Shown here: piece by piece, positions 5,170 to 34,235 of the stretch
Layout: each line of letters begins with the position of its first letter
Position numbering within the stretch: the first letter of the stretch is position 1
NCBI GenBank assembly: GCA_016218345.1
Contig: JACREH010000011.1
Coordinates: 1 to 35,860 of the forward strand
Direction of reading: 5' to 3'
DNA: 35,860 nt
DNA from: Gammaproteobacteria bacterium
Lineage (GTDB): Bacteria; Pseudomonadota; Gammaproteobacteria; Acidiferrobacterales; UBA6901
The notes under the pieces: model-generated
Seen by the model: only the letters and a program-made list of their open reading frames with translations
Told to the model about the DNA's origin: nothing
The model's database searches: none
Made by a program: the position numbers and the translations under genes

Positions 5170-5913
5170 ATGCTTAAGACGGTAACCGCAAACCCCGTTA
5201 CTTCCGAGTTCAATGCCTGTCGCCGTTGCCGCGCCGCGCGCCTCTGCCGGCTGGCGCGCAAGCCGCCGGCCGGCACGGACGCGTCCACGAAGGTCGTGTT
5301 GCGTCACCGCCGGCTGCGGCGCGGCGATTACCTGTATCGCACCGGCGACCCGCTGCATTCGCTCGGCGTGGTGTGTTCCGGATCGGTGCAGACCTGCCTG
5401 CTCCACCCCGACGGCACGACCCAGATAACCGGATTCCATCTGGCCGGCGAGTTCACCGCCCTGGGCGACATGAACGCCAAGCAACACACCCGCGACGGCG
5501 TGGCGCTGGAGACCACCTGCGTGTGCGAGATTCTACTCAGCCAGCTGCTGGAACTGTGTCACGAGTCTCCCGACGTGCGTCGCGACGTGCTGCAATTGGT
5601 GTTCGATCAGCTCGCCCATAACGAGGCGCAGTTGTTGCCATTGGTGGGCAGGAAATCCGCGACCGAACAGCTCGCGGCGTTTTTGTTGAGCCTGTCGGAA
5701 CGCTTGGCGGAGCGCGGGTTTTCCGGCGAGGATTTCAGTTTGAGCATGTCGCGCCAGGACATCGGCAGCTACCTCGGCTTGGCCAAGGAAACCATCAGTC
5801 GCCTGTTCTCGCGCCTGGAGAACGAAGGCGTCATCTCACTCGACGCGCGGCGATTGCGCCTGACCGACCCGCGGCGTCTGGCCGGTTTGGCGGCGGGCGC
5901 CACCGGACTTTGA
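5170..5913 (+). CDS. fnr: FNR/ANR-type oxygen-responsive transcription factor
   Basis: A 247-residue Crp/Fnr-family regulator. The N-terminus has Cys17, Cys20 and Cys26 in the CX2CX5C spacing of FNR, and Cys119 (in CVCEILL) matches the fourth [4Fe-4S] ligand, so an oxygen-sensing cluster is expected. The cyclic-nucleotide-like barrel covers about 45-130 and a dimer helix about 135-170. The helix-turn-helix is MSRQDIGSYLGLAKETISRL (193-212), with Glu207, Ser210 and Arg211 at the positions that read TTGAT half-sites in FNR. It should activate or repress genes under low oxygen. A matching box lies about 170 bases downstream of the gene, in front of the DUF2244-ctaD operon. No strong ribosome site is visible at the start. 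Confidence 0.9.
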   Translation: MLKTVTANPVTSEFNACRRCRAARLCRLARKPPAGTDASTKVVLRHRRLRRGDYLYRTGDPLHSLGVVCSGSVQTCLLHPDGTTQITGFHLAGEFTALGDMNAKQHTRDGVALETTCVCEILLSQLLELCHESPDVRRDVLQLVFDQLAHNEAQLLPLVGRKSATEQLAAFLLSLSERLAERGFSGEDFSLSMSRQDIGSYLGLAKETISRLFSRLENEGVISLDARRLRLTDPRRLAGLAAGATGL

Positions 5914-5937
5914 AGAATCACTTAGTACCTGGCTCGG

Positions 5938-5970
5938 AATCCCCCCGGCCTTCGGCCGACCCCCTTTTCC
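5938..5970. repeat. Dispersed intergenic repeat, copy 1
   Basis: AATCCCCCCGGCCTTCGG followed by CCGACCCCCTTTTCC. Nearly the same sequence recurs at 9067-9098 with compensating changes in the small stem (GGCC/GGCC-type versus GACC/GGCT). Confidence 0.7.
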
Positions 5971-6085
5971 ACAGAGGCTAACCATTCAGCCCCGGTAGTC
6001 TCCGCGGGGCATGCGCGAATTTATTCCCTCGTCTTGACCGGCCCTCGCGATTAGTGACCGATGTCACCGTGACCTCTTACCTGAA

Positions 6086-6127
6086 TTGATTTTTGTCACG
6101 ATCCCGCTCGTCTACAGCGGCTATCAT
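6086..6127 (+). promoter_or_regulatory. Predicted class II FNR-type promoter of the DUF2244-ctaD operon
   Basis: TTGATTTTTGTCAC (6086-6099) resembles the TTGAT-N4-ATCAA box: the left half is perfect and the right half keeps TCA. A -10-like TATCAT lies at 6122-6127. If transcription starts near 6134, the box is centred at -41.5, the standard class II activation position. The regulator gene is immediately upstream. The rest of the gap 5914-6226 holds the repeat at 5938 and nothing else I recognise. Confidence 0.55.
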
Positions 6128-6226
6128 GCCGCTACTTATTAAGACCCGGATAGCCGGACAACAGTAAAACCCGTAGTCACCGTCGCGGTGATGCAGAGCG
6201 GGTCGATCCGCTGGAGAGGGAGAAAA

Positions 6227-6793
6227 ATGCACCCACATGGTCGGACGGTCGCGGACGCGCCGGTTAAGCAGCGACTGGAGCTTCGTCCCAATCGATCGTT
6301 GACGGGCCGGGGCCGAACCGCGGTGTTTCTGTCGTTCGCGGCCGCGACCGTGGTCCTGGGGTTTCTGTTCCTGGCGACCGGTGCCTGGCCGGTGGTGCTG
6401 TTCCTGTTCCTGGAGTTGGCCGGGATCGGCTATGTACTCACGCGCACCGCCCGCGATGCCGGCGATTGCGAGGAGATCGTGGTCGAGGACGATCGCATGA
6501 AAATCATCCAGCACGCCGCCGGGCGGGTCAGTCAGCATGAATTCCAGTGTTATTGGGCGAAGGTCGCGCTCGAGCCGGCCGGCCGCGGGCGGCGCTCGGC
6601 CAAGCTGCTGATCGGTTCGCACGGTCGCGCGCTCGAGATCGGCCGGGCGCTGCAAGAAAGCGAAAAATACCGGCTCGCGCAACGGCTGGGCCTGATGGTC
6701 GGGCCGGCGCATCGCGACGCGCCGCCGCTACGCGGCGAAATCATTTTCAATTCCTGTGAGGAGGACACACATGGCAACTTCGCACCACGCTGA
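6227..6793 (+). CDS. DUF2244-domain membrane protein
   Basis: A 188-residue protein with two membrane helices at about residues 30-48 and 52-70, and cytoplasmic ends. The family signature is present: LELRPNRSLTGRGR before the first helix and EEIVVEDDRMKI plus the W-containing strand YWAKVALEPAGRG after the second. DUF2244 proteins are common in proteobacteria, often near respiratory genes; their role is unknown. GGAGAGGGAG supports the ATG at 6227, and the GTG at 6188 lies upstream of that site. The 3' end overlaps the ctaD start by 23 bases, with the ctaD ribosome site inside this gene, so coupling and a role in oxidase assembly or stability are reasonable inferences. Confidence 0.82.
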   Translation: MHPHGRTVADAPVKQRLELRPNRSLTGRGRTAVFLSFAAATVVLGFLFLATGAWPVVLFLFLELAGIGYVLTRTARDAGDCEEIVVEDDRMKIIQHAAGRVSQHEFQCYWAKVALEPAGRGRRSAKLLIGSHGRALEIGRALQESEKYRLAQRLGLMVGPAHRDAPPLRGEIIFNSCEEDTHGNFAPR

Positions 6794-8330
6794 ACACCCG
6801 GCCGGATTGAGCCGCTGGTTATTTACTACCAACCATAAGGACATCGGCACGCTCTATCTGTGGTTCGCGTTCGCGATGTTTCTGGTCGGCGGGGCGATGT
6901 CACTCGTGATCCGCTCCGAGCTGTGGCAACCGGGTCTGCAAATCGTCGATCCGCATTTCTTCAATCAAATGACCACGGTGCACGCCCTGGTCATGGTGTT
7001 CGGCGCGGTCATGCCGGCGTTCACCGGGCTGGCCAATTGGCTGATCCCGATGATGATCGGCGCGCCCGACATGGCGCTGCCGCGGCTGAATAACTGGTCG
7101 TTCTGGCTGTTGCCGATGGCCGCCGCGCTGCTCGTGACCTCGCTGTTCGTGCCGGGCGGCGGTCCGGACGCCGGTTGGACGCTGTATCCGCCGCTCTCCG
7201 TTCAGACCGGCATGGGCATGGACTTCACCATTCTGTCGGTGCACCTGCTCGGCATGTCCTCGATCCTCGGCTCGATCAACGTCATCGTTACGATCCTCAA
7301 CATGCGCGCCCCGGGCATGACGCTCATGAAAATGCCGATGTTCGTGTGGACCTGGCTGGTGACGGCGTTCCTGCTGCTGGCCGCGATCCCGGTGCTGGCC
7401 GGCGCGGTGACCTTGCTGTTGACCGATCGCCATTTCGGCACGCATTTCTTCGACGCCGCCGGCGGCGGCGACCCGGTGCTGTGGCAGCACGTGTTCTGGT
7501 TCTTCGGCCACCCGGAGGTGTATATCCTGGTGTTGCCGGCGTTCGGCGTTATCTCGCAGATCATCCCGACGTTCGCGCGCAAGCCGCTGTTCGGCTACAC
7601 CTCCATGGTCTATGCCACCGCCACCATCGCGTTCCTGTCGTTCATCGTCTGGGCGCACCATATGTATACGGTCGGAATGCCGGCGGCGGGCGAGTTGTTC
7701 TTCATGTACGCCACCATGCTGATCGCGGTGCCGACCGGGGTGAAGGTATTCAACTGGGTCGCGACCATGTGGCGCGGCTCGATGACCTTCGAGACGCCGA
7801 TGCTGTACGCCATCGGCACGGTGTTCACCTTCACGATGGGCGGTCTGACCGGCCTGATGCTGTCGATCACCCCGGCCGACTTCCAGTACCATGACAGCTA
7901 TTTCGTGGTGGCCCATTTCCACTACACGATCTTCGGCGGCTCGGTGCTGGCGCTGATGGCGGCGACCTATTACTGGCTGCCGAAGTGGACCGGCCACATG
8001 TACAACGAGACCCTCGGGAAGTGGCACTTCTGGCTTACCATACTCTCGTTCAACCTCACCTTCTTCCCGCAGCACTTCCTGGGCCTGGCCGGCATGCCGC
8101 GGCGCATTCCCGACTACGCCCTGCAATTCACCGATTTCAACCAGTGGTCGACGATCGGCGCGTTCGTGCTCGGGTTCTCGCAGTTGCTGCTCCTCTACCT
8201 GGTCGTGAAGACCGTCAAGGGCGGGGAAAGAGCGACCGACCGGGTGTGGGAGGGCGCGCACGGGCTCGAATGGACGCTACCATCGCCGGCGCCGTATCAC
8301 AGCTTCGCCACGCCGCCCAAGGTCGCGTGA
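6771..8330 (+). CDS. ctaD: aa3-type cytochrome c oxidase subunit I
   Basis: A 519-residue, 12-helix catalytic subunit of a heme-copper oxidase, which reduces O2 to water at the inner membrane and pumps protons. The heme and copper ligands are present: His71 (MTTVHALVM), His247 in GHPEVY, His296/His297 in WAHHMY, and His382/His384 in VVAHFHYT. It has the A1-type Glu249 and Tyr251, the K-channel Lys325 (TGVKVFNW), and the D-channel Asp100 with PRLNN. The start at 6771 follows GAGGAGGACACAC. Subunits II and III, usually adjacent, are absent: the gene is followed directly by a terminator. It appears to be cotranscribed with the DUF2244 gene from the predicted FNR-type promoter. Confidence 0.96.
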   Translation: MATSHHAEHPAGLSRWLFTTNHKDIGTLYLWFAFAMFLVGGAMSLVIRSELWQPGLQIVDPHFFNQMTTVHALVMVFGAVMPAFTGLANWLIPMMIGAPDMALPRLNNWSFWLLPMAAALLVTSLFVPGGGPDAGWTLYPPLSVQTGMGMDFTILSVHLLGMSSILGSINVIVTILNMRAPGMTLMKMPMFVWTWLVTAFLLLAAIPVLAGAVTLLLTDRHFGTHFFDAAGGGDPVLWQHVFWFFGHPEVYILVLPAFGVISQIIPTFARKPLFGYTSMVYATATIAFLSFIVWAHHMYTVGMPAAGELFFMYATMLIAVPTGVKVFNWVATMWRGSMTFETPMLYAIGTVFTFTMGGLTGLMLSITPADFQYHDSYFVVAHFHYTIFGGSVLALMAATYYWLPKWTGHMYNETLGKWHFWLTILSFNLTFFPQHFLGLAGMPRRIPDYALQFTDFNQWSTIGAFVLGFSQLLLLYLVVKTVKGGERATDRVWEGAHGLEWTLPSPAPYHSFATPPKVA

Positions 8331-18558: not shown

Positions 18559-18728
18559 CTAGCAGGTTGTTGAAAAAGTCCCTCCTGGCCTTTTTCAACC
18601 CGAAAAGCAAAAAGTGTGATTTTTGCTTTTCTTCAGTATTCAAACACTTGCGTGTTTGAATACTGGCGGTACATCCCTATACCGCACCGCAGGTTGTTGA
18701 AAAAACGAGTTTTTCAACAACCTGCTAG
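18559..18728. mobile_element. 170-bp MITE-like element with nested hairpins
   Basis: Both ends are the 19-bp perfect inverted repeat CTAGCAGGTTGTTGAAAAA (18559-18577 and 18710-18728). Inside are perfect hairpins at 18602-18631 (12-bp stem) and 18634-18665 (14-bp stem CAGTATTCAAACAC), plus another copy of the end sequence at 18689-18704 that pairs with the right end. There is no coding capacity. The ends resemble those of insertion sequences, so a non-autonomous element moved by a transposase elsewhere is likely. The right end supplies the TAG stop of the dynamin gene. Confidence 0.75.
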
Positions 18729-20668
18729 GCCGCGGCCGGCAACGGCTGATTGATCTTTTGCAGCATGGTCTGGATGACATGTTGCTGCTTGAGCAGTTCC
18801 TCCCGCGCGACCTCCAGTTCGTTGACGCGCTCGCCCATGCTGCTCAGGTTTTCCTGGACCTTTTTGAGGTTGTCCAGGCGCTTCTCCAGCAGGTTCTTGT
18901 GCTCGCGGATCTGGGCGAGCACCGGCGTCATTATGGCCTTGCTCCAGGCGGTCGCGTCCTTGTTGCAGGCGGCGAAGATCTCCCGCGCCCGGCTCACCAG
19001 GGTGATGAAGAACTTGGAAATCAGTATGTGCTCCTCGGTCACCACCATGAGCATGCTTTTGCGATACGCCTCGGCCTCCTCGTATAGGCGCTGCAGCTCG
19101 ATGGTGTAGGAATCCAGCGAGAAATTCATCGGCTTGATCTTGCTGAGACCGTGCTCGGCGTGGAATTTCTGGTAAACCGCGTCCACCAGGCCCTTGATCT
19201 GGTGACCCTGCTTGTTGACCTTGTCCATGGTCTCGGTGGCGCCCTTGAAGAACGTCGCCATGCCGTCGCGCAGTCCGGCGGTGGTCCAGGCCCCCTTCAT
19301 GTCGCGGCGGGTCTGGTTGATGAGCCCGTCGAAGCTCTTTATGCTGAGGAGTTCGAGCATGATGTGGTTTTGCTCGTTCAATACCGCGCGCGTCGCCTGA
19401 AAGCTTTCGAGCTTCTTGTCGTAGGCGTCCTTTTCCTGACGCAGGCGCGTGGCCATCGCCTGAATGACGTCCAGGCTCTTGCCGCCCAGTTGCTTGATCT
19501 CGTTGAGCTGGGTATCGGTGGCGGACAGCCGGGCGTCGACCACCGCCTCGGTGTTCTCGATCATGCCGCCGATCTCGCGGATCACCTTCTCGCGCATCAG
19601 TTGCTGCTTGGACGGAATGATGTCGTCCGAGAGCTTGATCTCGAGCGCCAGCAAGCCGCTCTTTTCGAGCAGCGCGTGATCGGCCTTGATCTTGCCGACC
19701 AGGCCCTTCTGAGCCGACACCGGGAACACCATGTTCCGGCCGATGCCGAGCACGCGGGCGGTTTCCTGGGTTTGCTGGTTGATGCTTTGGGCGATGTCGG
19801 CGTCGCCGCGCAGCTCGTCCCAGAGCGTGTCGATCTTGTTCAGCACCGCCACATAGCCGTTTTGCTTGTTGGCCTCGGCGGCGCGCCGCACGTAAGTGTT
19901 CCAGACCTCGAGATCGGACTTGGTCACGCCGGTGTCGGCGGCCAGCACGAACAGCACCGCCTGCGCCTTGGGCAGCATGTTGATGGTGAGTTCCGGCTCG
20001 GTGCCGAGCGAGTTCAGGCCGGGTGTGTCGAGGATCACCAGCCCCTGCTTCAACAGGGCGTGCGGGTAGTTGATGACGGCGTGCCGCCAGGTCGGCACCT
20101 CGATCAGGTTGCGCTCGTTCGGGCGCGCGCCGTCCGGTGCCTCCGGCGAATACAGACCGAGCTCCACCGCTTCGTTGACGTCAACCTCCTTGGTCCTGAC
20201 GATCTCGCGAAACAGCTCGGTCATCTGCCGGGGGTCTTCGAGCGGCAGCTCGAGGGTCGTCCAGTGGAGCGGGGTGCGTTTGTATTCGCCGACGGTGAGC
20301 GAGGTCTTGCGGGTCTCGATCGGCAACAGCCGGATGCACGGCGGCAGTTTCTCGTCGTACTGCAATTCGGTCGGGCACATGGTGGTGCGCCCGGCCTCGG
20401 TCGGCAGCAGCCGCTGCTTGTAGTCGGCGAAGAAGATGGCGTTGATGAGTTCGGTCTTGCCGCGCGAAAACTCCGCGACCAGCGCGATCGTGAGTTTGTC
20501 GGATTTGAGGCTGTCGATCAGCTCGTAAATCCGCAGATCTTCCTCGCCGCTCACCAGGTTTTGCTGTTCCACCCACGCCTGGTAGTGGCTGATGGCCGCG
20601 GACAACTCCTCGCGCCATTTTTTATAGTGCGCCATGCCCCGCGAGAAACTGTTGATGCTCATGGCCAT
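18725..20668 (-). CDS. Bacterial dynamin-like GTPase
   Basis: A 647-residue dynamin-superfamily protein, expected to bind GTP and act on membranes. The GTPase domain shows G1 as VAEFSRGKTELINAI (about 63-77; Ala in place of the first Gly of the P-loop), a conserved G2 threonine in GRTTMCPTEL, G3 DTPGL, and G4 LNKID. From about 340 on it is mostly helical with coiled-coil segments, ending in a long helix near 590-640. There is no clear membrane helix. The start follows AGGGGTGAT. The stop TAG lies in the end of the adjacent MITE-like element, so the original C-terminus may have been slightly longer. No partner dynamin is adjacent. Confidence 0.88.
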   Translation of the reverse strand: MAMSINSFSRGMAHYKKWREELSAAISHYQAWVEQQNLVSGEEDLRIYELIDSLKSDKLTIALVAEFSRGKTELINAIFFADYKQRLLPTEAGRTTMCPTELQYDEKLPPCIRLLPIETRKTSLTVGEYKRTPLHWTTLELPLEDPRQMTELFREIVRTKEVDVNEAVELGLYSPEAPDGARPNERNLIEVPTWRHAVINYPHALLKQGLVILDTPGLNSLGTEPELTINMLPKAQAVLFVLAADTGVTKSDLEVWNTYVRRAAEANKQNGYVAVLNKIDTLWDELRGDADIAQSINQQTQETARVLGIGRNMVFPVSAQKGLVGKIKADHALLEKSGLLALEIKLSDDIIPSKQQLMREKVIREIGGMIENTEAVVDARLSATDTQLNEIKQLGGKSLDVIQAMATRLRQEKDAYDKKLESFQATRAVLNEQNHIMLELLSIKSFDGLINQTRRDMKGAWTTAGLRDGMATFFKGATETMDKVNKQGHQIKGLVDAVYQKFHAEHGLSKIKPMNFSLDSYTIELQRLYEEAEAYRKSMLMVVTEEHILISKFFITLVSRAREIFAACNKDATAWSKAIMTPVLAQIREHKNLLEKRLDNLKKVQENLSSMGERVNELEVAREELLKQQHVIQTMLQKINQPLPAAA

Positions 20669-25229: not shown

Positions 25230-25883
25230 TTAACGCGCCGTTGCGCCGGGGCTGGCGCGTCCGGCCGCGACCAGATCGGAAAGGAACCGGCCATAGACAT
25301 CGCCGACGGCCTGCTCGAACGCCTCCACCACCGCGGCGACCGAGCCGTCGCGGGCCGGCAGCTCGGCGCTGTAACGGCGCAACAACACCGGGCGCGCCGA
25401 CCCCTTGTGCTCCACTCCCAGTTCCAGCTCGACCGCCGCCAGCGCGCGCTCGGCGTTGTTGAGACGTTCGAAACGCACCAGCCGGCCGATCACCCGGTGC
25501 TCGGCCGGCAGGCGCGGGTCGTCGGGCAGCACCGTGGCGGCGGCGCGCGCCTGGCGCAGGTAGGCCACGAGCTGTTCCTGCAGTAGGCGCGGCGGGCTGT
25601 CGACCCAATGGTGGTAGTGGTAACGACGCAGTTCCCGCGGTTGCCCCTGATCGGCATACAACAGGGCGCGCTCGCTGTGCAGGCCGTCGCTCTGCAGCGG
25701 CGCGACCGCCAGCAATCCCGGCAGCGCCGGCGCGGACAACGCCGTGGGCGCGGCCACCCCGATGCGGTAGTAGCGCTCCACCGGCACCGGCGGCGCCGAC
25801 CCGCAGCCGGTCACGCCGAGCAGCACCATGCCCAGAATCGCCGCCGGCCAGGGCCTGCGAAAAATGGTCATTGTTGTCTTCAT
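25230..25883 (-). CDS. PqiC/MCE-associated outer-membrane lipoprotein
   Basis: A 217-residue lipoprotein of the ABC-type transport auxiliary family (PqiC-like) that partners with MCE transporters at the outer membrane. The signal peptide ends in a lipobox LLGVTGCGS with the acylated Cys at 27. The mature part begins PVERYYRIG and has the family core LPGLLAVAPLQSDGLHSERALLYAD, then YHYHHWVDSPPRLLQEQLVAYLR. The start ATG overlaps the stop of the MCE gene by four bases. It is the last gene of the seven-gene operon running from 30331. Confidence 0.85.
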   Translation of the reverse strand: MKTTMTIFRRPWPAAILGMVLLGVTGCGSAPPVPVERYYRIGVAAPTALSAPALPGLLAVAPLQSDGLHSERALLYADQGQPRELRRYHYHHWVDSPPRLLQEQLVAYLRQARAAATVLPDDPRLPAEHRVIGRLVRFERLNNAERALAAVELELGVEHKGSARPVLLRRYSAELPARDGSVAAVVEAFEQAVGDVYGRFLSDLVAAGRASPGATAR

Positions 25884-26692
25884 TTCGCTTCGCCCGGATC
25901 CTGCGGCGACGTGCTGTTGAGCAACAACCCCGGGTTCTCGCGCAGCGCGCGGCTCAGTTCCAGCAGGTTGCGCGAGGTGCCTTCCAGGTTGTAGGACACC
26001 GTGCCGGCATACTGGGCGATGACGGCGAGCGAGGCGCGCAGGTCGGCGACCGCGCGATCGATTTCCGGGCGGTTGCCCTTGAGCATGTCGTTGGACTCGC
26101 CGAGCAGCTCGTCGAGGCGCTGCTGCGTGCCGGTCAGTCCGGTGGTGAGCGTCTGGAAGTTGCGCGAGGTCTGCGCCAGATTCTCCAGCAGTTCGCCCAC
26201 GTTCTCGCGGTTGCGTCCGCCGAGCATCGCCTCCACGTCGCCGGCGGCGTTGTTCAGCCGGTTGGCGAGCGAGTCCACGGCCGCGAGCAGGTTGACGCTC
26301 TCGCGGCCGGCGATCGTCGCCCCGGGCGCGAGCAGTTCGGGCTCGACGCCCTCCTGGATGTCGATGCTGACCGACGACAGCAGGCCCGAAGAAACGACCT
26401 GCGCCACGCTGTCCTTGGGTATGCCCCAGCCGTGCTGCACGGCGAGCTCCAGGCGATAACGGATCTTGCCGCCGTCGCGCCGCGGCGCGATGTCCGCCAC
26501 GCGTCCCAGCGGATAGCCTTCGAACGACACCGGCGTGCCGCGCGCCAGCCCGGCGACATGGGCGTACTCGACATAGTAGCGGTCGGTGGCGCCGGTGCGG
26601 CCGGTGATGAGCGCCAGCGTGACCGCCAGCGCGATCAGCACCGCCAGCGTGAAGCCGCCGACCGCCAGATAGGGAATGTCGTCGTGCTTCAT
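25880..26692 (-). CDS. mlaD: MlaD/MCE-domain substrate-binding protein
   Basis: A 270-residue inner-membrane-anchored periplasmic protein. The membrane helix lies at about 9-30, followed by one MCE domain (about 38-115: YYVEYAHVAGLARGTPVSFEGYPLGRVADI, then IPKDSVAQVVSSGLLSSVSIDI). A long helical region (about 140-240) probably forms the hexamer tunnel. MCE proteins move phospholipids between membranes. ATGA overlaps link it to both neighbours. The family is certain; the direction of transport is not. Confidence 0.9.
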   Translation of the reverse strand: MKHDDIPYLAVGGFTLAVLIALAVTLALITGRTGATDRYYVEYAHVAGLARGTPVSFEGYPLGRVADIAPRRDGGKIRYRLELAVQHGWGIPKDSVAQVVSSGLLSSVSIDIQEGVEPELLAPGATIAGRESVNLLAAVDSLANRLNNAAGDVEAMLGGRNRENVGELLENLAQTSRNFQTLTTGLTGTQQRLDELLGESNDMLKGNRPEIDRAVADLRASLAVIAQYAGTVSYNLEGTSRNLLELSRALRENPGLLLNSTSPQDPGEAK

Positions 26693-27519
26693 GCCGAGGG
26701 TCTCGGCTCGCGGCCGGTGAGCCGGCGCAGGTATTCGTCGGGATCGCGCACGCGCGCCTCGGGGCGGCGGTTGAGCAGGTTCTGGATGCGCGGGTCGTCC
26801 GACGCGCGCACCTCGGCCACGCTGCCGGTCATGAGGATACGGCCGCGGTCCAGGAAGGTGATGCGGTCGGCGATCTTGAAGGCGCTGTCCAGTTCGTGGG
26901 TCACCACCACGATGGTCATGTGCATGGTGTCACGCAGTCTGAGTATGAGCTCGTCCAGTTCCGCGGACACCACCGGGTCCAGGCCCGCGGACGGTTCGTC
27001 GAAGAACAGCAGCCGCGGGTCCATGACGATGGCGCGCGCCAGCGCGGCGCGCTTCACCATGCCGCCGGACAGTTGCGCCGGCATCAGGTCTTCGGCGTGC
27101 GCCAGGTCGACCACCTCGAGCTTGAGGCGGCTCATGATGCGCATGGTGTTTTCGTCCAGGCGGGTGTGCTCGCGCAGCGGCAGGCGCACGTTCTCGCCCA
27201 CGCTCATGGAGTTGAACAGCGCCCCGCCCTGGAACGACATGCCGATCTTGCGGCGCAGTTCGTACAGCTCCTGCGACTTCAGGCGGGTGATGTCCCGACC
27301 CAGCAGTTTGATGCTGCCGCCCACCGGCCGGTGCAGCCCCAGCAGGTAGCGCAGAAAGGTGCTCTTGCCGGAGCCGCTGCCGCCCATGATCACCAGGATC
27401 TCGCCCTGATAGACCGTGAGATTGACGTCGCGCAGGATGTCGCGCGACCCGTAGCGCACATGCAGGTCCTCGACCTCGATCACCGGCGTGCGCTCGGCGT
27501 TGTCGGCGGCCGCGCTCAT
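26689..27519 (-). CDS. mlaF: MlaF-type ABC transporter ATPase
   Basis: A 276-residue ATPase energising the MCE transporter. Walker A GGSGSGKST (46-54), signature LSGGMVKRAALARAI, Walker B LLFFDEPSAGLDPV and the H-loop VVTHEL are all present. The LSGGMVKRAALARAI text is typical of the MlaF group. The ATG at 27519 overlaps the permease stop (TGATG). A longer open frame reaches 28206 but only by running across the permease gene in another frame, so it is rejected. Confidence 0.93.
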   Translation of the reverse strand: MSAAADNAERTPVIEVEDLHVRYGSRDILRDVNLTVYQGEILVIMGGSGSGKSTFLRYLLGLHRPVGGSIKLLGRDITRLKSQELYELRRKIGMSFQGGALFNSMSVGENVRLPLREHTRLDENTMRIMSRLKLEVVDLAHAEDLMPAQLSGGMVKRAALARAIVMDPRLLFFDEPSAGLDPVVSAELDELILRLRDTMHMTIVVVTHELDSAFKIADRITFLDRGRILMTGSVAEVRASDDPRIQNLLNRRPEARVRDPDEYLRRLTGREPRPSA

Positions 27520-28334
27520 CAGCGGCTCAGGAACCAGGTGAAGATCATATCGGCGATCACGATGGCGGTGATCGACAGCACCACCGAACGCGTGGTGGCG
27601 CGGCCCACGCCCTGGGCGCCGCCGCTGACCGCAAAGCCGTTGGCCGTGCCGATCAGGGTGATGAGCACGGCGAACACCAGGCTTTTCACCAGCCCTTGCA
27701 TCACGTCCTCCACGTCGAGCGCGTCGCGGGTGCGGTCGAGGTAGGTGCCGATGTCCAGGCCGAGATCGGCGGCGCTGTACAGGGCGCCGCCCATGATCCC
27801 CATGACATCGGCGCAGAACGTGAGCGCCGGCATCATGATCAGCATGGCGAGCAGCGCCGGCGCCACCAGGAACCGCACCGGGCTGACGCCGATCACGCGC
27901 AGCGCGTCGATCTCCTGGCCGATTTGCATGGTGCCGATGCGCGCGGCCAGCGCCGACCCCGAGCGGCCGGCCACCAGGATGGCGACGATCAGCGGCGCGA
28001 ACTCGCGCGTCACCGACAGCGCGATGCCCACCACCACCTGCGATTCGGCGCCGAAGGTCTTGAGGGTGTGGATGCCCTGGATGGCGAGCATCACGCCGAT
28101 GGCCAGCGACAGCACGGCGACGATGGGCAGCGCCCGGATGCCGACCTCCATCATCTCCAGGACCGTGTCCGCGAACCGCACCGACTGGCGGCGGCGCGCG
28201 CCCCACGCGATCCAGTACAGGCTCTCGGCCAACAGCGCCGCGTGGTAGCCCAGTTCCTCGACGGCGCGCACCGTGCCGCGCCCCAGGCGCTCGACCCAGC
28301 GCGCGATCGGGTTGGCCTGGGTGTCAGCCGCCAT
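27519..28334 (-). CDS. mlaE: MlaE-type permease
   Basis: A 271-residue inner-membrane permease with about five or six helices. The family block runs from about 80 to 175: AIQGIHTLKTFGAESQVVVGIALSVTREFAPLIVAILVAGRSGSALAARIGTMQIGQEIDALRVIGVSPVRFLVAPALLAMLIMMPALT. It pairs with the MlaF ATPase and binds the MCE ring. Its start lies 11 bases inside the 3' end of the STAS gene, linking the transporter to the regulatory module. Confidence 0.94.
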   Translation of the reverse strand: MAADTQANPIARWVERLGRGTVRAVEELGYHAALLAESLYWIAWGARRRQSVRFADTVLEMMEVGIRALPIVAVLSLAIGVMLAIQGIHTLKTFGAESQVVVGIALSVTREFAPLIVAILVAGRSGSALAARIGTMQIGQEIDALRVIGVSPVRFLVAPALLAMLIMMPALTFCADVMGIMGGALYSAADLGLDIGTYLDRTRDALDVEDVMQGLVKSLVFAVLITLIGTANGFAVSGGAQGVGRATTRSVVLSITAIVIADMIFTWFLSR

Positions 28335-28662
28335 CGGCCATGGCCTCGGCGATCGATGGATAGATGCGGAATACCTTATCGAGATGCGCGAGCTGCAGCA
28401 CCTTGACGGCGCCGGCGCTCACGCCGGCCAGCGCGAACTGCAGGCCGCGTTCCTTGGCGGTCTGGTAGCCCTCCACCAGGCTGGCCACGCCGGAGCTGTC
28501 GAGGTAGTGCACGCCGCCGAGGTCCACCACCACGTGGCGGCGCTCGGCGAGCGCACGCAGAATGGCGCCGCGCGCCGCGGGCGAGCTGGCCAGATCCACG
28601 TCGCCCTCCAGGCCGATCACGGCGTAGTCGCCGTCGTAGTGCACGTCACACTGCATCGCCAT
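28324..28662 (-). CDS. STAS-domain protein (MlaB / anti-anti-sigma type)
   Basis: A 112-residue STAS domain spanning nearly the whole protein. The phospho-site motif HYLDSSGVASLVEGY is complete (Asp55, Ser56, Ser57, Gly58), as in SpoIIAA and RsbV. In Mla systems the small STAS subunit MlaB binds MlaF and is needed for activity. The gene sits directly between an RsbW-type ATPase (1-base overlap) and the permease (11-base overlap), so it may serve both as a kinase target and as a transporter subunit. The two roles are inference from position. Start ATG at 28662. Confidence 0.85.
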   Translation of the reverse strand: MAMQCDVHYDGDYAVIGLEGDVDLASSPAARGAILRALAERRHVVVDLGGVHYLDSSGVASLVEGYQTAKERGLQFALAGVSAGAVKVLQLAHLDKVFRIYPSIAEAMADGG

Positions 28663-29078
28663 CACCCTATTTTCTTGCGCAGCTCCAGCAGGTTCCCCGT
28701 GCCCTGTGGCGGCGGCAGGTACCGGCAACTGTCCATGAGCGTTGTGATGAAATGGGTGCCGAGCCCCCCCGGCCGTAGCTCGTCGAGGTTGCGCGGCCGC
28801 AGGCACCCGGGATCGACGGGTGGTGCATAGTCGCGCAGCCGGACGATGATCTCCCGGGCATTATTTATGATTTCCAGCTCGATTGCACCTGCCGGGTCGC
28901 CGCGGTAACCGTGCCGGATGATGTTGGCGCAGGCCTCGTTCACGGCCATGATCACCGCATCGGTGGTATCCGCGGCGCAGCCGATCGCGCGCAGCGCCGC
29001 GCCCACCCGCTCGCGCACCTCGGCCAGCCGCTCGGGCCGGGCCGGTACCGACATGGCCAGCACCACCGGCGCGTTCAC
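28662..29078 (-). CDS. RsbW/SpoIIAB-type serine kinase/ATPase
   Basis: A 138-residue GHKL-fold ATPase of the anti-sigma-factor kinase type. The N-box is VNEACANIIRHGY (46-58, Glu48 and Asn52), the G1 region LRDYAPPVDP (81-90) and the G2 box PGGLGTHFI. This family phosphorylates STAS partners and lets go of, or binds, its other partner accordingly. It overlaps the upstream phosphatase gene by four bases and the downstream STAS gene by one. No sigma factor is adjacent, so a non-sigma client is possible. Confidence 0.9.
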   Translation of the reverse strand: MNAPVVLAMSVPARPERLAEVRERVGAALRAIGCAADTTDAVIMAVNEACANIIRHGYRGDPAGAIELEIINNAREIIVRLRDYAPPVDPGCLRPRNLDELRPGGLGTHFITTLMDSCRYLPPPQGTGNLLELRKKIG

Positions 29079-30331
29079 CGCGCCCCCTCGATCAGCAACA
29101 GCGTGATGTCGTCGTGCAGCGTTTGATCCTGGCCGAGGAACGGCTCTGCCATGACCTCCAAACGCTGCGCCGCCGGCAGGGCGGCACAGTGTTGCACCAG
29201 ATCGCGCACGCCGTCCTGGGCGAGTGTCGAACCGTCCGCCAGCGTCCCCTCGCTCAGCCCGTCGCTGTATATATAGAGAGCGCCGCCGTCCAGCCGCAGT
29301 TCGACCTCCGGAAACGCGATGCCGGCGAGCACGCCGAGCGGCGGCGCCGCGGCCGGAAACTCGCGCAGCGACCCGTCGGACGCGCGCAGCAGCGCCGGTG
29401 GATGACCGGCGTTGGCCAGGCGCACCGCGCCGCTACGCGGATCGTACACGCCGGCGATCAGGGTGACGAACAGACCGCGGGTCGCGGTCTCGCACAACTC
29501 GTCGTTGAGGCGCGCCGCCAGTTCGCCCGGGGCGGTCAGCGTCTTGCCCAGGCAGCGGAACAGACTGCAAGTCTTGGCCATGAGCAGCGCGGCATTCATA
29601 CCCTTGCCGGCCACGTCGCCCAGCGCGAAGGCGATACGCCCGTCGGCCAGCCGCAGGAAATCATAGAAATCGCCGGACACCCCGCGCGCCGGGAGGTTGA
29701 GGCCGTGCAGCGGGAAGTCGGCGGCCGGCTCCGGCGGCAGCAGACTGCGCTGGATGTCGCGCGCCAGCTCCAGTTCGCGGCGCAGGCGCTCCTGCTCGAC
29801 CAGCGCCGCGGCCATGCGCGCGTTGCGGATGGCGAGCGCCGCCGACGCGGCCAGTGCCGTGAGCAGGTGCAGGTCGCTGTCGTCGAACAGCCCGTCGCCG
29901 CCCTGTTTGTTGATGAGCTCGATGGCGCCGAGCGGCTCGCCGCGCACGCTCAGCGGCGCGCACAGGATGGAGCGGGTGACGAACGAGTGCGCCTCATCGA
30001 GGGCGGCGCTGAAGTCCTGGTGGGTGCGCGCATCGCGCACCATCTGCGCGCGGTTGTCGCTGACCACCCGGCCGACGATGCCGGTGCCGGCCGCGAGCCG
30101 CGCGCCGGTGATGTCCACCGGACCCGCGCAGGTACGGCACACCAGCTCGCGGCCGTCGCTGTCCAGCAGGAAGATCGAACCCGCCTGGGCGTGCAGCGCG
30201 CGCATGATCTCGACGATGGCGGTGCGCAGCGTGTCTTCGATGTCGAGCGAGGCGGCGAAGCCCTGGCTGATTTCGGCGAACTGCGCCAGGCCGGCGAATG
30301 GGTCAGCGGGCGGCTGTTTGGGTGCGGGCAT
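29075..30331 (-). CDS. GAF-domain SpoIIE-type PP2C serine phosphatase
   Basis: A 418-residue phosphatase: a GAF sensor at about 30-172 and a SpoIIE/PP2C domain at about 205-415, joined by a coiled linker (ALVEQERLRRELELARDIQRSLLPP). The PP2C metal-site aspartates are in GDFYDF (220-225), GDVAGKGMNAAL (238-249), YSDGLSEG and DDITLLLI. Such enzymes remove phosphate from STAS antagonists. Cysteines in the GAF domain (VCRTC, about 64-68) could serve a redox or ligand role. It is the first gene of the operon to 25230; a clear promoter was not found. Confidence 0.92.
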   Translation of the reverse strand: MPAPKQPPADPFAGLAQFAEISQGFAASLDIEDTLRTAIVEIMRALHAQAGSIFLLDSDGRELVCRTCAGPVDITGARLAAGTGIVGRVVSDNRAQMVRDARTHQDFSAALDEAHSFVTRSILCAPLSVRGEPLGAIELINKQGGDGLFDDSDLHLLTALAASAALAIRNARMAAALVEQERLRRELELARDIQRSLLPPEPAADFPLHGLNLPARGVSGDFYDFLRLADGRIAFALGDVAGKGMNAALLMAKTCSLFRCLGKTLTAPGELAARLNDELCETATRGLFVTLIAGVYDPRSGAVRLANAGHPPALLRASDGSLREFPAAAPPLGVLAGIAFPEVELRLDGGALYIYSDGLSEGTLADGSTLAQDGVRDLVQHCAALPAAQRLEVMAEPFLGQDQTLHDDITLLLIEGAR

Positions 30332-30373: not shown

Positions 30374-31663
30374 CTACGTTTCTACGCCCAGTTCGAATAC
30401 CACTTCCCCGCCCACCAGGGTGTGCGTCACTTTCCCGCGGAATTCCCAGCCGAGGAACGGGGTGTTGTGGCCGCGGCTCTTGAGTTGGTCGGCGGTCAGC
30501 GTCCAGTGGGCCTTGGGGTCGATGATGCAGATGTCGGCGCTGGCGTCGATGCCGAGGTGGCCGGCGTCGACGCCGAGGATGGCGGCCGGTTTGTGGGTGA
30601 CGAGGGCGATGGCCTCGCTCAGGGTAAGGAGTTTTTCGTCGACCAGTTTGAGGGTGAGCGGCAGCAGGGTTTCAAGGCCGGAGATGCCCGGCTCGGAGTC
30701 GGCGAACGGCGCGAGCTTGGCGTCCGGTTCGTGCGGTTGATGGTCGGAGCAGATCGCGCCGAGCACGCCGGTCTTGAGCGCGCGCCGCAGCACCTCGCGG
30801 TCGCGCGTGCTCCGGAGCGGCGGCAGCACGTGGCATTGGGTGTTGAAAAAGCCGATGTCGTGTTCAGTGAGGTGCAGGTGGTGGGCGGTGACGTCGGCGC
30901 TCACCGGCAGGCCGCGCTTCTGGGCCTCGGCGACCATGGCCACGGCGCGGCTGCTGGAGAGCTGGCAGAAGTGCGCGCGCACTCCGGTCTGTTCGATGAG
31001 CGCCAGATCGCGCGCCACGCCCACGGTCTCGGCCGCCTCGGGGATGCCGGGCAATCCCAAGCGCGTGCCGATCTCGCCTTCGTGGACGCAGCCGCCGTTT
31101 TGCAGCCACGGGTCCTGGGCGTGCAGGAACACGGTGAGGTCGAAGCTCGCGGCGTACTCCATGGCGCGGCGCATCACCAGCGTGTCGGTCACCGGCTGGA
31201 GGGCGTTGCTGAAGCCGACGCAGCCAGCCTCGTCGAGCGCCGCCATGTCGGTGAGCTGCTGGCCCTCCAAGGCGCGCGTGAGCGCGCCGAGCGGATGCAC
31301 GAACGCCAGGCCGATGCGCCAGGCGCGTTGCTGGATCATCTGCGCCATCGCCGGGGTGTCGATCGGCGGCTGGGTGTCGGGCGGGCAGCAGAGCGTGGTG
31401 ATGCCGGCGCTGACCGCGGCGCGCGTCTCGCTCTCCATGGTGGCCTTGTATTCGAGGCCCGGCTCGCGCAGGCGCGCGCGCAGATCGACCAGTCCCGGGC
31501 AGACCAGCTTGCCCTTGGCGTCGAGCGTGCGCTCGGCCTTGAAGCCGCTCGGTGCGCTGCCGACGCCGACGATAAAGCCGTCGGCGGCGATATACACGTC
31601 GTGCGGCGAGTCGATGTTGTTGGCCGGGTCGATGACGTGCCCGCCCTTGATGACCAGGCTCAT
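30374..31663 (-). CDS. pyrC: Dihydroorotase-like PyrC' (predicted inactive)
   Basis: A 429-residue class I dihydroorotase homologue. The zinc motif that should read HxH is [11 protein letters not shown]: residues 62 and 64 are Arg, so metal binding and catalysis are expected to be lost. Other core blocks are kept ([57 protein letters not shown]). The non-catalytic PyrC' of Pseudomonas, needed to assemble aspartate transcarbamoylase, has the same kind of loss. It is coupled to pyrB by a four-base overlap. A catalytic dihydroorotase should exist elsewhere. Confidence 0.93.
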
Positions 31664-32643
31664 GGCGCGCGCCTCGCTTCGGCGGCCGGTGTGCCGCCCA
31701 TGATCAGCGCCATGATCGCCATGCGCACCGCGATACCATTGGTGACCTGCGGCAGGATCACCGAGTTCGGGCCGTCGGCGACCGCCGAGTCGATTTCCAG
31801 GCCGCGGTTCATCGGGCCGGGGTGCATGACGATCACGTCCGGCTTGGCATAGGCGCGTTTCTCGGCGGTCAGGCCGTAGAGATTGAAATATTCCTGTTCG
31901 CTCGGGATGAGCGCGCCGGTCATGCGCTCGCGTTGCAGGCGCAGCATCATGATCACGTCCACGTCGGCGAGGCCGGCGCGCATGTCGGTGAACGGATGCA
32001 CGCCGAGCTTCTCGACGGCGGTCGGCAACAGCGTCTTGGGCGCGATCACCCGCACCTCGGCGGCGCCGAGCGTGGTGAGCGCGTGGATCTCGGAGCGCGC
32101 CACGCGCGAGTGCAGCACGTCGCCGACGATCGCCACCCGCAGGTTCTCGAACGGCCCCTTGTGGCGGCGGATGGTGAACATGTCGAGCATCGCCTGGGTG
32201 GGATGGGCGTGGCGGCCGTCGCCGGCGTTGATGATGTGCACGTGCTCGGACACATGCCCGGCGATCAGATAGGCGGCGCCGCTGCTGGCATGGCGCACCA
32301 CGAACAGATCGGTGTGCATGGCCTCGAGGTTGCGCACCGTGTCGAGCAGGGTCTCGCCCTTGGCGGTCGAGGACAGGCTGGGGTTGATGTTGATGACGTC
32401 CGCCGACAGGCGCTTGGCGGCGATCTCGAAGGTGGTGCGGGTGCGGGTGCTGGATTCGAAGAACAGGTTGACTACGGTCTTGCCGCGCAGCAGCGGCACC
32501 TTCTTGATCTCGCGCTCGCCCATGGCGATGAACGATTCGGCGGTGTCGAGGATATCGAGAATGGTTTGACGGGGCAGGCCCTCAATAGTCAGAAAATGGC
32601 GGAGCCGCCCGTGACTATCGAATTGCCGGCCGTCTTGCTTCAA
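31660..32643 (-). CDS. pyrB: Aspartate carbamoyltransferase catalytic subunit
   Basis: A 327-residue enzyme that makes carbamoyl-aspartate in pyrimidine synthesis. The carbamoyl-phosphate motif [15 protein letters not shown] (about 59-73) and the aspartate-side [12 protein letters not shown], plus RLQRERM and [10 protein letters not shown], identify it. It follows pyrR by four-base overlap and precedes pyrC'. The pyrB-pyrC' pair forms the large holoenzyme typical of pseudomonads. Confidence 0.96.
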
Positions 32644-33146
32644 CCGCCGGCCTCCTGGATGGACAGGCTGAGCGTGCCGTGCGGATCGTGGGCGCGCATG
32701 AGCTTGATGTGCTGGTGTTTGTCGAGCGTCAGCGTCTCGCCGACGAAGTCGGCCTGGATCGGCAGCTCGCGGCCGTCGCGCGCGATCAGCACCGCGAGCG
32801 CCACCGACGCCGGCCGGCCGTAGTCGAAGATCTCGTTCATGGCGGCGCGGATGGTGCGGCCGGTGTGCAGCACGTCGTCGACCAGGATCACGTGCCGGTC
32901 CTCGACGTTGACCGGCAGGTTGGAGGTCTTGACCTGCGGGTTGATGCCGAGGCGGGTGAAGTCGTCGCGGTAGAAGGAGATATCGAGCGTGCCCAGCGGT
33001 TCGGACAGCGCCAGCGCCTTATGCAACCGCTCGGCCAGCCACGCGCCGCCGGTGTGGATGCCGATCATGATCGGCCGGGCGGCGAGCCGCGGGCGCAGCG
33101 CCTCGGCCATGCGCGCGAGCGCGGCCTCGATGTCAACCGCGGCCAT
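32640..33146 (-). CDS. pyrR: PyrR-type phosphoribosyltransferase/regulator
   Basis: A 168-residue PRTase-fold protein. The PRPP motif [18 protein letters not shown] (about 93-110) and the N-terminal [18 protein letters not shown] are clear. In Gram-positives PyrR attenuates the pyr operon and has weak uracil phosphoribosyltransferase activity; in gammaproteobacteria its regulatory role is less certain. The ATG at 33146 lies 14 bases inside ruvX. Confidence 0.93.
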
Positions 33147-33576
33147 GGCTGTCGGCCTGTTCGTCGAGGAACGCCTGCAAGATCGCCTGGGCGGCGAGCT
33201 TGTCGACCCGCGCCTTGCGGCGCGCGAAAGGCACGCCGGCCTCGACCAAGGCATTCTTGGCGGCCACCGATGTCAGTCGCTCGTCGACCATGTGCACAGG
33301 CAGATTGTAACGGCCCTGCAGGCGATTACCAAACTTCCGGGCCGCCGCGGTCATGGTGTTCTCGGAATCGTCCATATTGAGCGGCAGGCCGACCACCAGC
33401 GCGGCCGGCCGCCACTCGGCGATCAGCCGGGAAATATGCGCCCAGTCCGGCCCGCTCCGGCCGACCTGGACGTTGGCCAGGCTCTCGGCCAGGCCGGAAT
33501 GACTGCCGCCGACCGCCACGCCGATCTGTTTCGACCCGTAGTCGAAGGCCAGGTAGGTGGCGGTGCGTTCAGGCAT
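33133..33576 (-). CDS. ruvX: Holliday junction resolvase-like RuvX/YqgF
   Basis: A 147-residue RNase-H-fold nuclease involved in 16S rRNA maturation. The catalytic start is YLAFDYGSKQIGVAVGG (8-24), with VVGLPLNMDDSENTMT and VDERLTSVAAKN as the other conserved sites. ATG at 33576 fits the family length; a longer frame to 33648 adds unrelated sequence. The order yqgE-ruvX-pyrR-pyrB is a conserved gammaproteobacterial block. Confidence 0.94.
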   Translation of the reverse strand: MPERTATYLAFDYGSKQIGVAVGGSHSGLAESLANVQVGRSGPDWAHISRLIAEWRPAALVVGLPLNMDDSENTMTAAARKFGNRLQGRYNLPVHMVDERLTSVAAKNALVEAGVPFARRKARVDKLAAQAILQAFLDEQADSHGRG

Positions 33577-33634
33577 GGTGGATGGCTCGGGCGGCGACGC
33601 CCGGTGAATGATGATGGTTGCACCCCCATCCCGA

Positions 33635-33657
33635 CCTTCCCCCATCAAGGGGGAAGG
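33635..33657. repeat. Short perfect hairpin between yqgE and ruvX
   Basis: CCTTCCCCC (33635-33643) pairs with GGGGGAAGG (33649-33657) around ATCAA. It resembles the dispersed CCCCTTCCCC-type elements of high-GC genomes. There is no T run. Confidence 0.65.
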
Positions 33658-33671
33658 GGAAGAGCCCGGTC

Positions 33672-34235
33672 TCAGGCGTGGCCGGCGTCACCGGACATGA
33701 TGGAGAGGTCGACGCCCAAGAGCCGCGCCGCCGCGCTCCAGCGTGTCTCCGGCGGGGTGCGAAAGATGATGCCGCGGTCGGACGGACCGCTCAGCCAGGC
33801 GTTCTCGGCGATCTCGTGTTCGAGTTGCCCGGCCGCCCAGCCGGCGTAGCCGAGCGTGAGGATGTAATTCGCCGGCCCGCTATTGTGGGCGAGCGCCTCG
33901 AGGATGTCGCGCGACGTGGACACGCCCAGATCGTCGGCGACCGCCAGCGTCGACTCCCACTTTCCGAGCGGCTCGTGCAGCACGAAGCCGCGGTTGGCCT
34001 GCACCGGCCCGCCGATATGCACCGGCTCGCGCAGGTGCTGCGAGTCCTGGGCCTCGATGTTCATTTGCTGGAGCACGTCGGCCAGGCACAGGTCGGTGGT
34101 GCGGTTGATGACCAGCCCCATCGCGCCTTCGTTGGAATGCTCGCAGATGAGCGTAACGGTGCGCGAAAAATTCGGATCGCCGAGATTGGGCATGGCGATC
34201 AGGAAATGATTGATGAGGGAATCGAAGTTGGTCAT
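33672..34235 (-). CDS. yqgE: YqgE/AlgH family protein
   Basis: A 187-residue protein of the YqgE/AlgH fold. It begins NFDSLINHFLIAMPNLGDPNFSRTVTLICEHSNEGAMGLVINR, the family hallmark, then HIGGPVQANRGFVLHE and a C-terminal NYILTLGYAGWAAGQLEHEIAENAWL. The function is unclear; links to alginate regulation and cell-envelope stress have been suggested. It is followed by ruvX and preceded by the hairpin element. Confidence 0.94.
   Translation of the reverse strand: MTNFDSLINHFLIAMPNLGDPNFSRTVTLICEHSNEGAMGLVINRTTDLCLADVLQQMNIEAQDSQHLREPVHIGGPVQANRGFVLHEPLGKWESTLAVADDLGVSTSRDILEALAHNSGPANYILTLGYAGWAAGQLEHEIAENAWLSGPSDRGIIFRTPPETRWSAAARLLGVDLSIMSGDAGHA

Follow-up and report, generated by a model that had tools for sequence, protein, structure and literature searches.

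A partner-switching cassette encoded with an Mla/Mpc-type lipid transporter is a candidate switch for the MlaF ATPase through a phosphorylatable STAS protein

In the Mla system of Escherichia coli, Thr52 of the STAS subunit MlaB lies at the centre of the interface with the ATPase MlaF; MlaF is bound more weakly by the T52E variant, and ATPase activity is lost with T52A (PMC7367683, PMC5016091). Tyr261 and Leu265 in the C-terminal extension of MlaF pack on MlaB (PMC7367683), and the E. coli studies leave MlaB phosphorylation and the kinase responsible for it open (PMC7367683, PMC5016091). Here we describe an operon at positions 25230-30331, minus strand, of a 35,860-nucleotide stretch of DNA (the window) from a gammaproteobacterium of the order Acidiferrobacterales (assembly GCA_016218345.1, contig JACREH010000011.1). 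It combines a partner-switching cassette, consisting of a GAF-PP2C phosphatase, an RsbW-type kinase and a STAS protein, with the genes of a lipid transporter of the Mla type or of the related Mla-Pqi chimeric (Mpc) type. The cassette probably controls the ATPase of this transporter post-translationally, with the STAS protein as a phosphorylatable substitute for MlaB.

In the proposed mechanism, unphosphorylated STAS would occupy the MlaB site on MlaF, and the ATPase would assemble with the permease MlaE and work. RsbW would bind STAS and phosphorylate Ser56, predicted to lie at the centre of the interface equivalent to that of MlaB and MlaF, whereupon phosphorylated STAS would depart from MlaF and the transporter would stop. 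Stimulation of the sensor domain would then lead PP2C to strip the phosphate and turn the transporter on, and cells could probably switch lipid transport on and off quickly by these means. We infer that STAS binds MlaF and is phosphorylated, and likewise which state is active and what signal acts, the biochemical core of the proposal resting on homology and genomics; the dephosphorylated state is taken as the active one because of the E. coli precedent. The original prediction, made from the window alone, had put forward such a phospho-switch, and it is supported by our comparison: the cassette is conserved, its catalytic and phospho-site residues are intact, and canonical Mla operons served by the cassette lack mlaB.

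The arrangement was widely conserved. Named genomes were scanned with an alignment of the kinase and the best 80 loci were kept, which came from Gammaproteobacteria, Rhodospirillales, other Alphaproteobacteria (Paramagnetospirillum, Magnetospirillum and Terasakiella among them) and metagenome-assembled genomes labelled Deltaproteobacteria. At 69 of these 80 loci, STAS and mla genes came after the kinase gene in the same orientation; 60 of the 69 held the complete STAS-MlaE-MlaF-MlaD-PqiC set, and a single open frame spanned PP2C and kinase in 37 of the 80. Of 57 genomes belonging to the order, 4 had a kinase match, as did 75 of 369 genomes in an even sample of the class. Kinases of this kind (E up to 1e-17) occurred in 58 genomes of the class sample besides the source, representing 33 family codes; 52 of them adjoined mla genes, two were cut by contig ends and four were non-adjacent. 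The co-occurrence of PP2C, RsbW-type ATPase and STAS genes with mla genes, which the original prediction named as its test, was strongly positive.

The residues needed for such a switch were present. The STAS gene (28324..28662, minus strand) encodes a 112-amino-acid protein of the RsbV/SpoIIAA type (Pfam STAS 8e-20; TIGR00377 above cut-off), and the complete DSSG phospho-site reported earlier was found in the motif YLDSSG as Ser56-Ser57 (28492..28497, minus strand), numbered from the first ATG. Each of the 133 STAS copies that were read, a count in which some loci appear twice, had DSSG, which was also invariant in the STAS alignment. Ser56 aligned with the first Ser of the SpoIIAA DSSG motif, a position that we take to be that of the phosphorylated Ser of SpoIIAA and of Thr52 of E. 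coli MlaB. In the kinase (28662..29078, minus strand; 138 amino acids with a GTG start; HATPase_c_2 7e-30), which is of the RsbW/SpoIIAB type, the N-box and G-box residues E48, N52 and D83 and the PGGLG motif were invariant in an alignment of 27 sequences. The GAF-PP2C protein (29075..30331, minus strand; 418 amino acids; Pfam GAF 2e-18, SpoIIE 3e-39) is a SpoIIE/RsbU-type serine phosphatase and the predicted sensor and phosphatase of phosphorylated STAS; its translation shows the metal-binding motifs GDFYD, DVAGKG, SDGLSE and DDITLL, retained in 104-112 of 112 relatives.

Several loci varied in the cassette itself. In L135 (5768-7381), L136 and L100 the N-terminus of the phosphatase looked HDOD-type rather than GAF, so that the input domain looks to have been swapped and the output kept. 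Kinase and STAS shared one open frame in L096 (579-2495), which may reflect either a genuine fusion of RsbW with STAS or an error in the sequence. No natural fusion of STAS with MlaF was found. Within the window's order, L072 (contig C108 of genome G048) held a kinase and a convergent PP2C with no adjoining STAS or mla genes and was uninformative for the main question.

We distinguished two kinds of canonical Mla operon. Type A operons contain mlaB and were represented by that of the source genome on contig C38 and by L150, L154, L162 and L197-L200. Type B operons, defined by an MlaE resembling that of L155 with the cut placed at a gap in the match list after viewing it, formed a large canonical group in which no mlaB was found (L155, L156, L160, L163-L165, L201, L204, L206, L210 and L213); no mlaB was seen beside any of 26 type-B loci, three of which (in G225, G239 and G251) were not safely readable past mlaA or mlaC. 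The kinase was present in 24 of 26 type-B genomes and in 35 of 343 others (Fisher p 2e-19; 15 family codes), counts that are not independent of phylogeny and that depend on a type-B threshold set post hoc. An unlinked type-B Mla operon, with no mlaB seen there, was present in both contig-cut genomes of the class sample and in all four non-adjacent genomes except G367.

Several gene arrangements linked the switch to MlaF. The switch immediately preceded canonical mla genes (mlaA and/or mlaC), without mlaB, in eight loci (L134, L135, L136, L100, L203, L211, L212 and L223). Minimal cassettes of PP2C-RsbW-STAS-MlaF without a permease gene were found in L209, L215 and L233, and in these genomes type-B mlaE-mlaD-mlaA was located elsewhere, without mlaF. 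Four further operons (L112, L157, L158 and L159) read PP2C-RsbW-STAS-MlaE-MlaF-MlaD-PqiC-MlaE2-MlaD2-MlaA-MlaC, with two permeases, one mlaF and one STAS. By this comparison, the cassette was shown to go with MlaF and not with any single permease.

Sequence identities were consistent with this pattern. The window MlaF shared 61-68% of its residues with type-B MlaF and about 40% with type-A MlaF, while the window MlaE was 31-37% identical to MlaE of both types. Put in single figures, the resemblance to type B was about 62% for MlaF and about 34% for the permease. Operons of the window kind (the module) and type B likewise shared 57-69% identity in MlaF and 30-37% in MlaE, and type-A and type-B MlaF were about 38% identical; judged by these values, the type-B MlaF lineage is distinct from MlaB-dependent MlaF. 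The MlaE tree split the module from types A and B, and the MlaF tree split type A from all else by a long branch. In approximately unbiased (AU) tests, a single group of module and type B was rejected for MlaE (p 0.011), and a clade of types A and B was not rejected for MlaF (p 0.195). Because of the latter value, we base the discordance between MlaF and MlaE on identities and branch lengths and claim no proven tree conflict.

The window MlaF (26689..27519, minus strand; 276 amino acids; ABC_tran 2e-32), whose top relatives in the PDB were MlaF-type chains from Mla complexes, carries a C-terminal extension with Tyr263 and Leu267 (YLRRLTG; 26719..26733, minus strand), the counterpart of the E. 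coli Tyr261/Leu265 pair that packs against MlaB. Almost every MlaF of the module, of type B and of the MlaB-dependent kind retained this Y-x3-L motif, which was missing from the MlaF of the source genome's own STAS-MlaE fusion system, which is Mpc-like (L023:6606-9006, contig C96). Since some operons pair two permeases with one mlaF and some genomes keep mlaF beside the switch with the permease elsewhere, one phospho-controlled STAS-MlaF core could be a shared, exchangeable power unit for two lipid transporters of the same cell, an Mpc-like bridge and a canonical line of MlaE-MlaD-MlaA-MlaC that has no mlaB of its own. We offer this tentatively, as possible rather than probable; if true, a single kinase-phosphatase switch would set the whole inter-membrane lipid traffic.

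Several observations weigh against STAS as the regulated subunit of MlaF, in addition to the phylogenetic dependence, the post hoc threshold and the MlaF AU test given above. By sequence and modelled fold, the window STAS is of the RsbV/SpoIIAA type and not of the MlaB family. Its AlphaFold model (predicted local distance difference test score, pLDDT, 95) had TM1442, RsbV and SpoIIAA as closest solved folds (template modelling, TM, score up to 0.90), and E. coli MlaB ranked 47th in the fold search with a TM score of 0.64. The model has a strand at residues 97-99 and a helix at 102-109, unlike the short MlaB, which lacks the fifth strand and the last helix. There was no match to the MlaB model NF033618 at E 1e-5, a model to which the C38 MlaB of the source genome itself scored only 32 bits (cut-off 90 bits). 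The STAS is nevertheless encoded with mlaF and mlaE as the STAS available to that ATPase, both in the synteny census and in canonical operons that hold it instead of mlaB.

Losses were also seen. At one gammaproteobacterial site, flanked by a gene for a domain of unknown function (DUF) upstream and by FHA and PP2C genes downstream, the transporter block lay between STAS and FHA in L063, L056 and L075; at the same site in L058, L080, L094 and L107 the cassette was kept and the adjacent transporter block was gone. Such transporter-less loci might be taken as proof of another target, a reading overturned for these four by their genomes, where only canonical mlaFED was found elsewhere and no mlaB was seen (the L058 operon runs off the contig end). 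The switch STAS was the only STAS_2 match in two assemblies (G425 and G429, the genomes of L058 and L075), and the simplest reading of the four genomes is that the switch STAS serves their canonical MlaF in trans. G367 is still unexplained, having a solitary cassette and no type-B Mla that could be found. Conversely, the complete genome G289 (L201) has type-B Mla, and no kinase and no stand-alone STAS were found there, only a weak STAS_2 match in a 546-amino-acid frame. As many diderms also run MlaEFD without MlaB (PMC10665443), STAS is not strictly required.

The chief rival keeps the classic topology with MlaF replacing the sigma factor: RsbW would bind and inhibit MlaF, and unphosphorylated STAS would draw RsbW off without ever sitting on the transporter. 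SpoIIAB and RsbW act so on sigma factors, the STAS type fits, the minimal cassettes contain both RsbW and MlaF, and a STAS-free transporter appears possible from G289. We consider it unlikely that RsbW grips MlaF with STAS as antagonist, given that E. coli MlaB, a STAS protein, binds exactly MlaF (PMC7367683), that the MlaB-contacting C-terminal motif of MlaF is conserved and that switch-bearing operons lack mlaB, all of which favours STAS itself on MlaF.

In a second rival, the cassette would be a conventional anti-sigma/anti-anti-sigma switch acting on a sigma factor encoded elsewhere or on another transcriptional target, and the transporter would merely be co-transcribed. This would match the way most known partner-switching systems act and the persistence of the cassette in some genomes beside CHASE2-cyclase and FHA genes, without an adjacent transporter. 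It would not predict that the switch stays with MlaF where the permease gene lies at another site. Unlinked type-B Mla operons in which no mlaB was seen also co-occurred with the switch, no sigma-factor gene was found among the flanking genes scanned, and the neighbours varied between loci while the mla genes were constant; a transcriptional target is thus quite improbable. Finally, the kinase was not found in the other six genomes of the family to which the window belongs, so that the arrangement is absent there, as might be expected of a chance neighbourhood or an annotation artefact. A chance junction was the outcome that could have undone the original prediction, and the arrangement instead recurs over dozens of families, far beyond chance, with mla genes following the kinase and STAS genes at 69 of the 80 named loci and in 52 of the 58 class-level genomes. 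This synteny census ruled out coincidence or artefact, to which we assign a practically negligible probability. Control of MlaF through STAS is the reading we retain.

Within the window, all seven overlapping minus-strand genes described originally were present and open, each above its own Pfam cut-off, and the reported overlaps of 1-11 bases were confirmed, the six junctions from PP2C to the last gene measuring 4, 1, 11, 1, 4 and 4 bases. The STAS start is ambiguous, and a second ATG 6 bases downstream would abolish the 1-base overlap with the kinase gene. The remaining transporter genes encode an MlaE-family permease (27519..28334, minus strand; 271 amino acids; PF02405 1e-72, TIGR00056 above cut-off), an MlaD/MCE protein with a long C-terminal part (25880..26692, minus strand; 270 amino acids; PF02470 7e-14 across residues 36-115) and a PqiC-like (ABC_trans_aux) lipoprotein (25230..25883, minus strand; 217 amino acids; PF03886 7e-10). 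Also as stated before, we recognised no separate gene for MlaB, MlaC or a sigma factor in the window, where Pfam covered only part of the other open reading frames.

The source assembly (1.85 Mb, 80.6% complete) contained three MlaE systems, namely a canonical mlaF-E-D-C-B operon on contig C38, the STAS-MlaE fusion system on C96 and the window operon. Both mlaB and mlaC are therefore present elsewhere in the genome, within the separate C38 operon. The window kinase was the sole strong RsbW-type HATPase in this incomplete assembly, other matches being weak. Directly upstream of the switch operon and on the same strand (30374-34235) lie pyrimidine genes (pyrC-like, pyrB-like and a phosphoribosyltransferase) and an AlgH-like gene; the pyrC-like gene, named from its translation alone, is 42 bases away, and the switch operon may share transcription with the pyrimidine genes. 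The window also holds a gene for a dynamin-family large GTPase (18725-20668) and one for a Crp/Fnr-type regulator adjoining a cytochrome/quinol oxidase subunit I gene (5170-8330). At some gammaproteobacterial loci (L075:12035-16326, L063, L094 and L107) the switch adjoins a CHASE2-guanylate/adenylate cyclase, an FHA protein, a second PP2C and an apparent serine/threonine kinase, forming a dense signalling cluster.

No description of a kinase-STAS-Mla operon was found in the open-access literature, and the combination is well supported by comparative genomics. In this operon family, candidates for the kinase, the phosphatase and their substrate share a single transcription unit, which makes the question of MlaB phosphorylation directly testable, and the cassette also occurs in the named genera Paramagnetospirillum, Magnetospirillum and Terasakiella. 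If the proposed mechanism is true, partner switching would extend from transcription to the direct control of an ATP-binding cassette (ABC) transporter. The operon family also suggests a role as transporter subunits for proteins that are encoded next to mla genes and annotated as 'anti-sigma factor antagonist'.

Compared with known systems, the cassette resembles RsbU/RsbW/RsbV and SpoIIE/SpoIIAB/SpoIIAA in its PP2C phosphatase, its HATPase serine kinase and its STAS protein of the same fold with DSSG; unlike them, the window operon has no sigma factor, and MlaF, an ABC ATPase, is the fourth partner that is conserved. With E. coli MlaFEDB it shares the ATPase MlaF, the permease MlaE, the MCE protein MlaD and a STAS subunit, in which Ser56 presumably corresponds to MlaB Thr52. 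It differs in encoding a kinase and a phosphatase with a full-length RsbV/SpoIIAA-type STAS, and in having a PqiC-like lipoprotein and no mlaC. We know of no kinase for MlaB. By its gene content, with a PF03886 match and no mlaC match in the window, the transporter is of the Mpc kind rather than a classical Mla, even though operons of the classical type are served by relatives of the switch. Like Brucella Mpc, it combines MlaE and MlaF with a PqiC-like lipoprotein and an MCE protein that exceeds E. coli MlaD in length, without MlaC; in the four-gene Mpc operon, however, MlaE carries the STAS as a fused domain, and neither a kinase nor a phosphatase is encoded (PMC12436622), whereas the window STAS is separate. 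In Veillonella parvula, where only mlaEFD was identified, the Mla core likewise works without MlaB, MlaC and MlaA (PMC10665443), and to such a core the window operon is predicted to add a regulated STAS.

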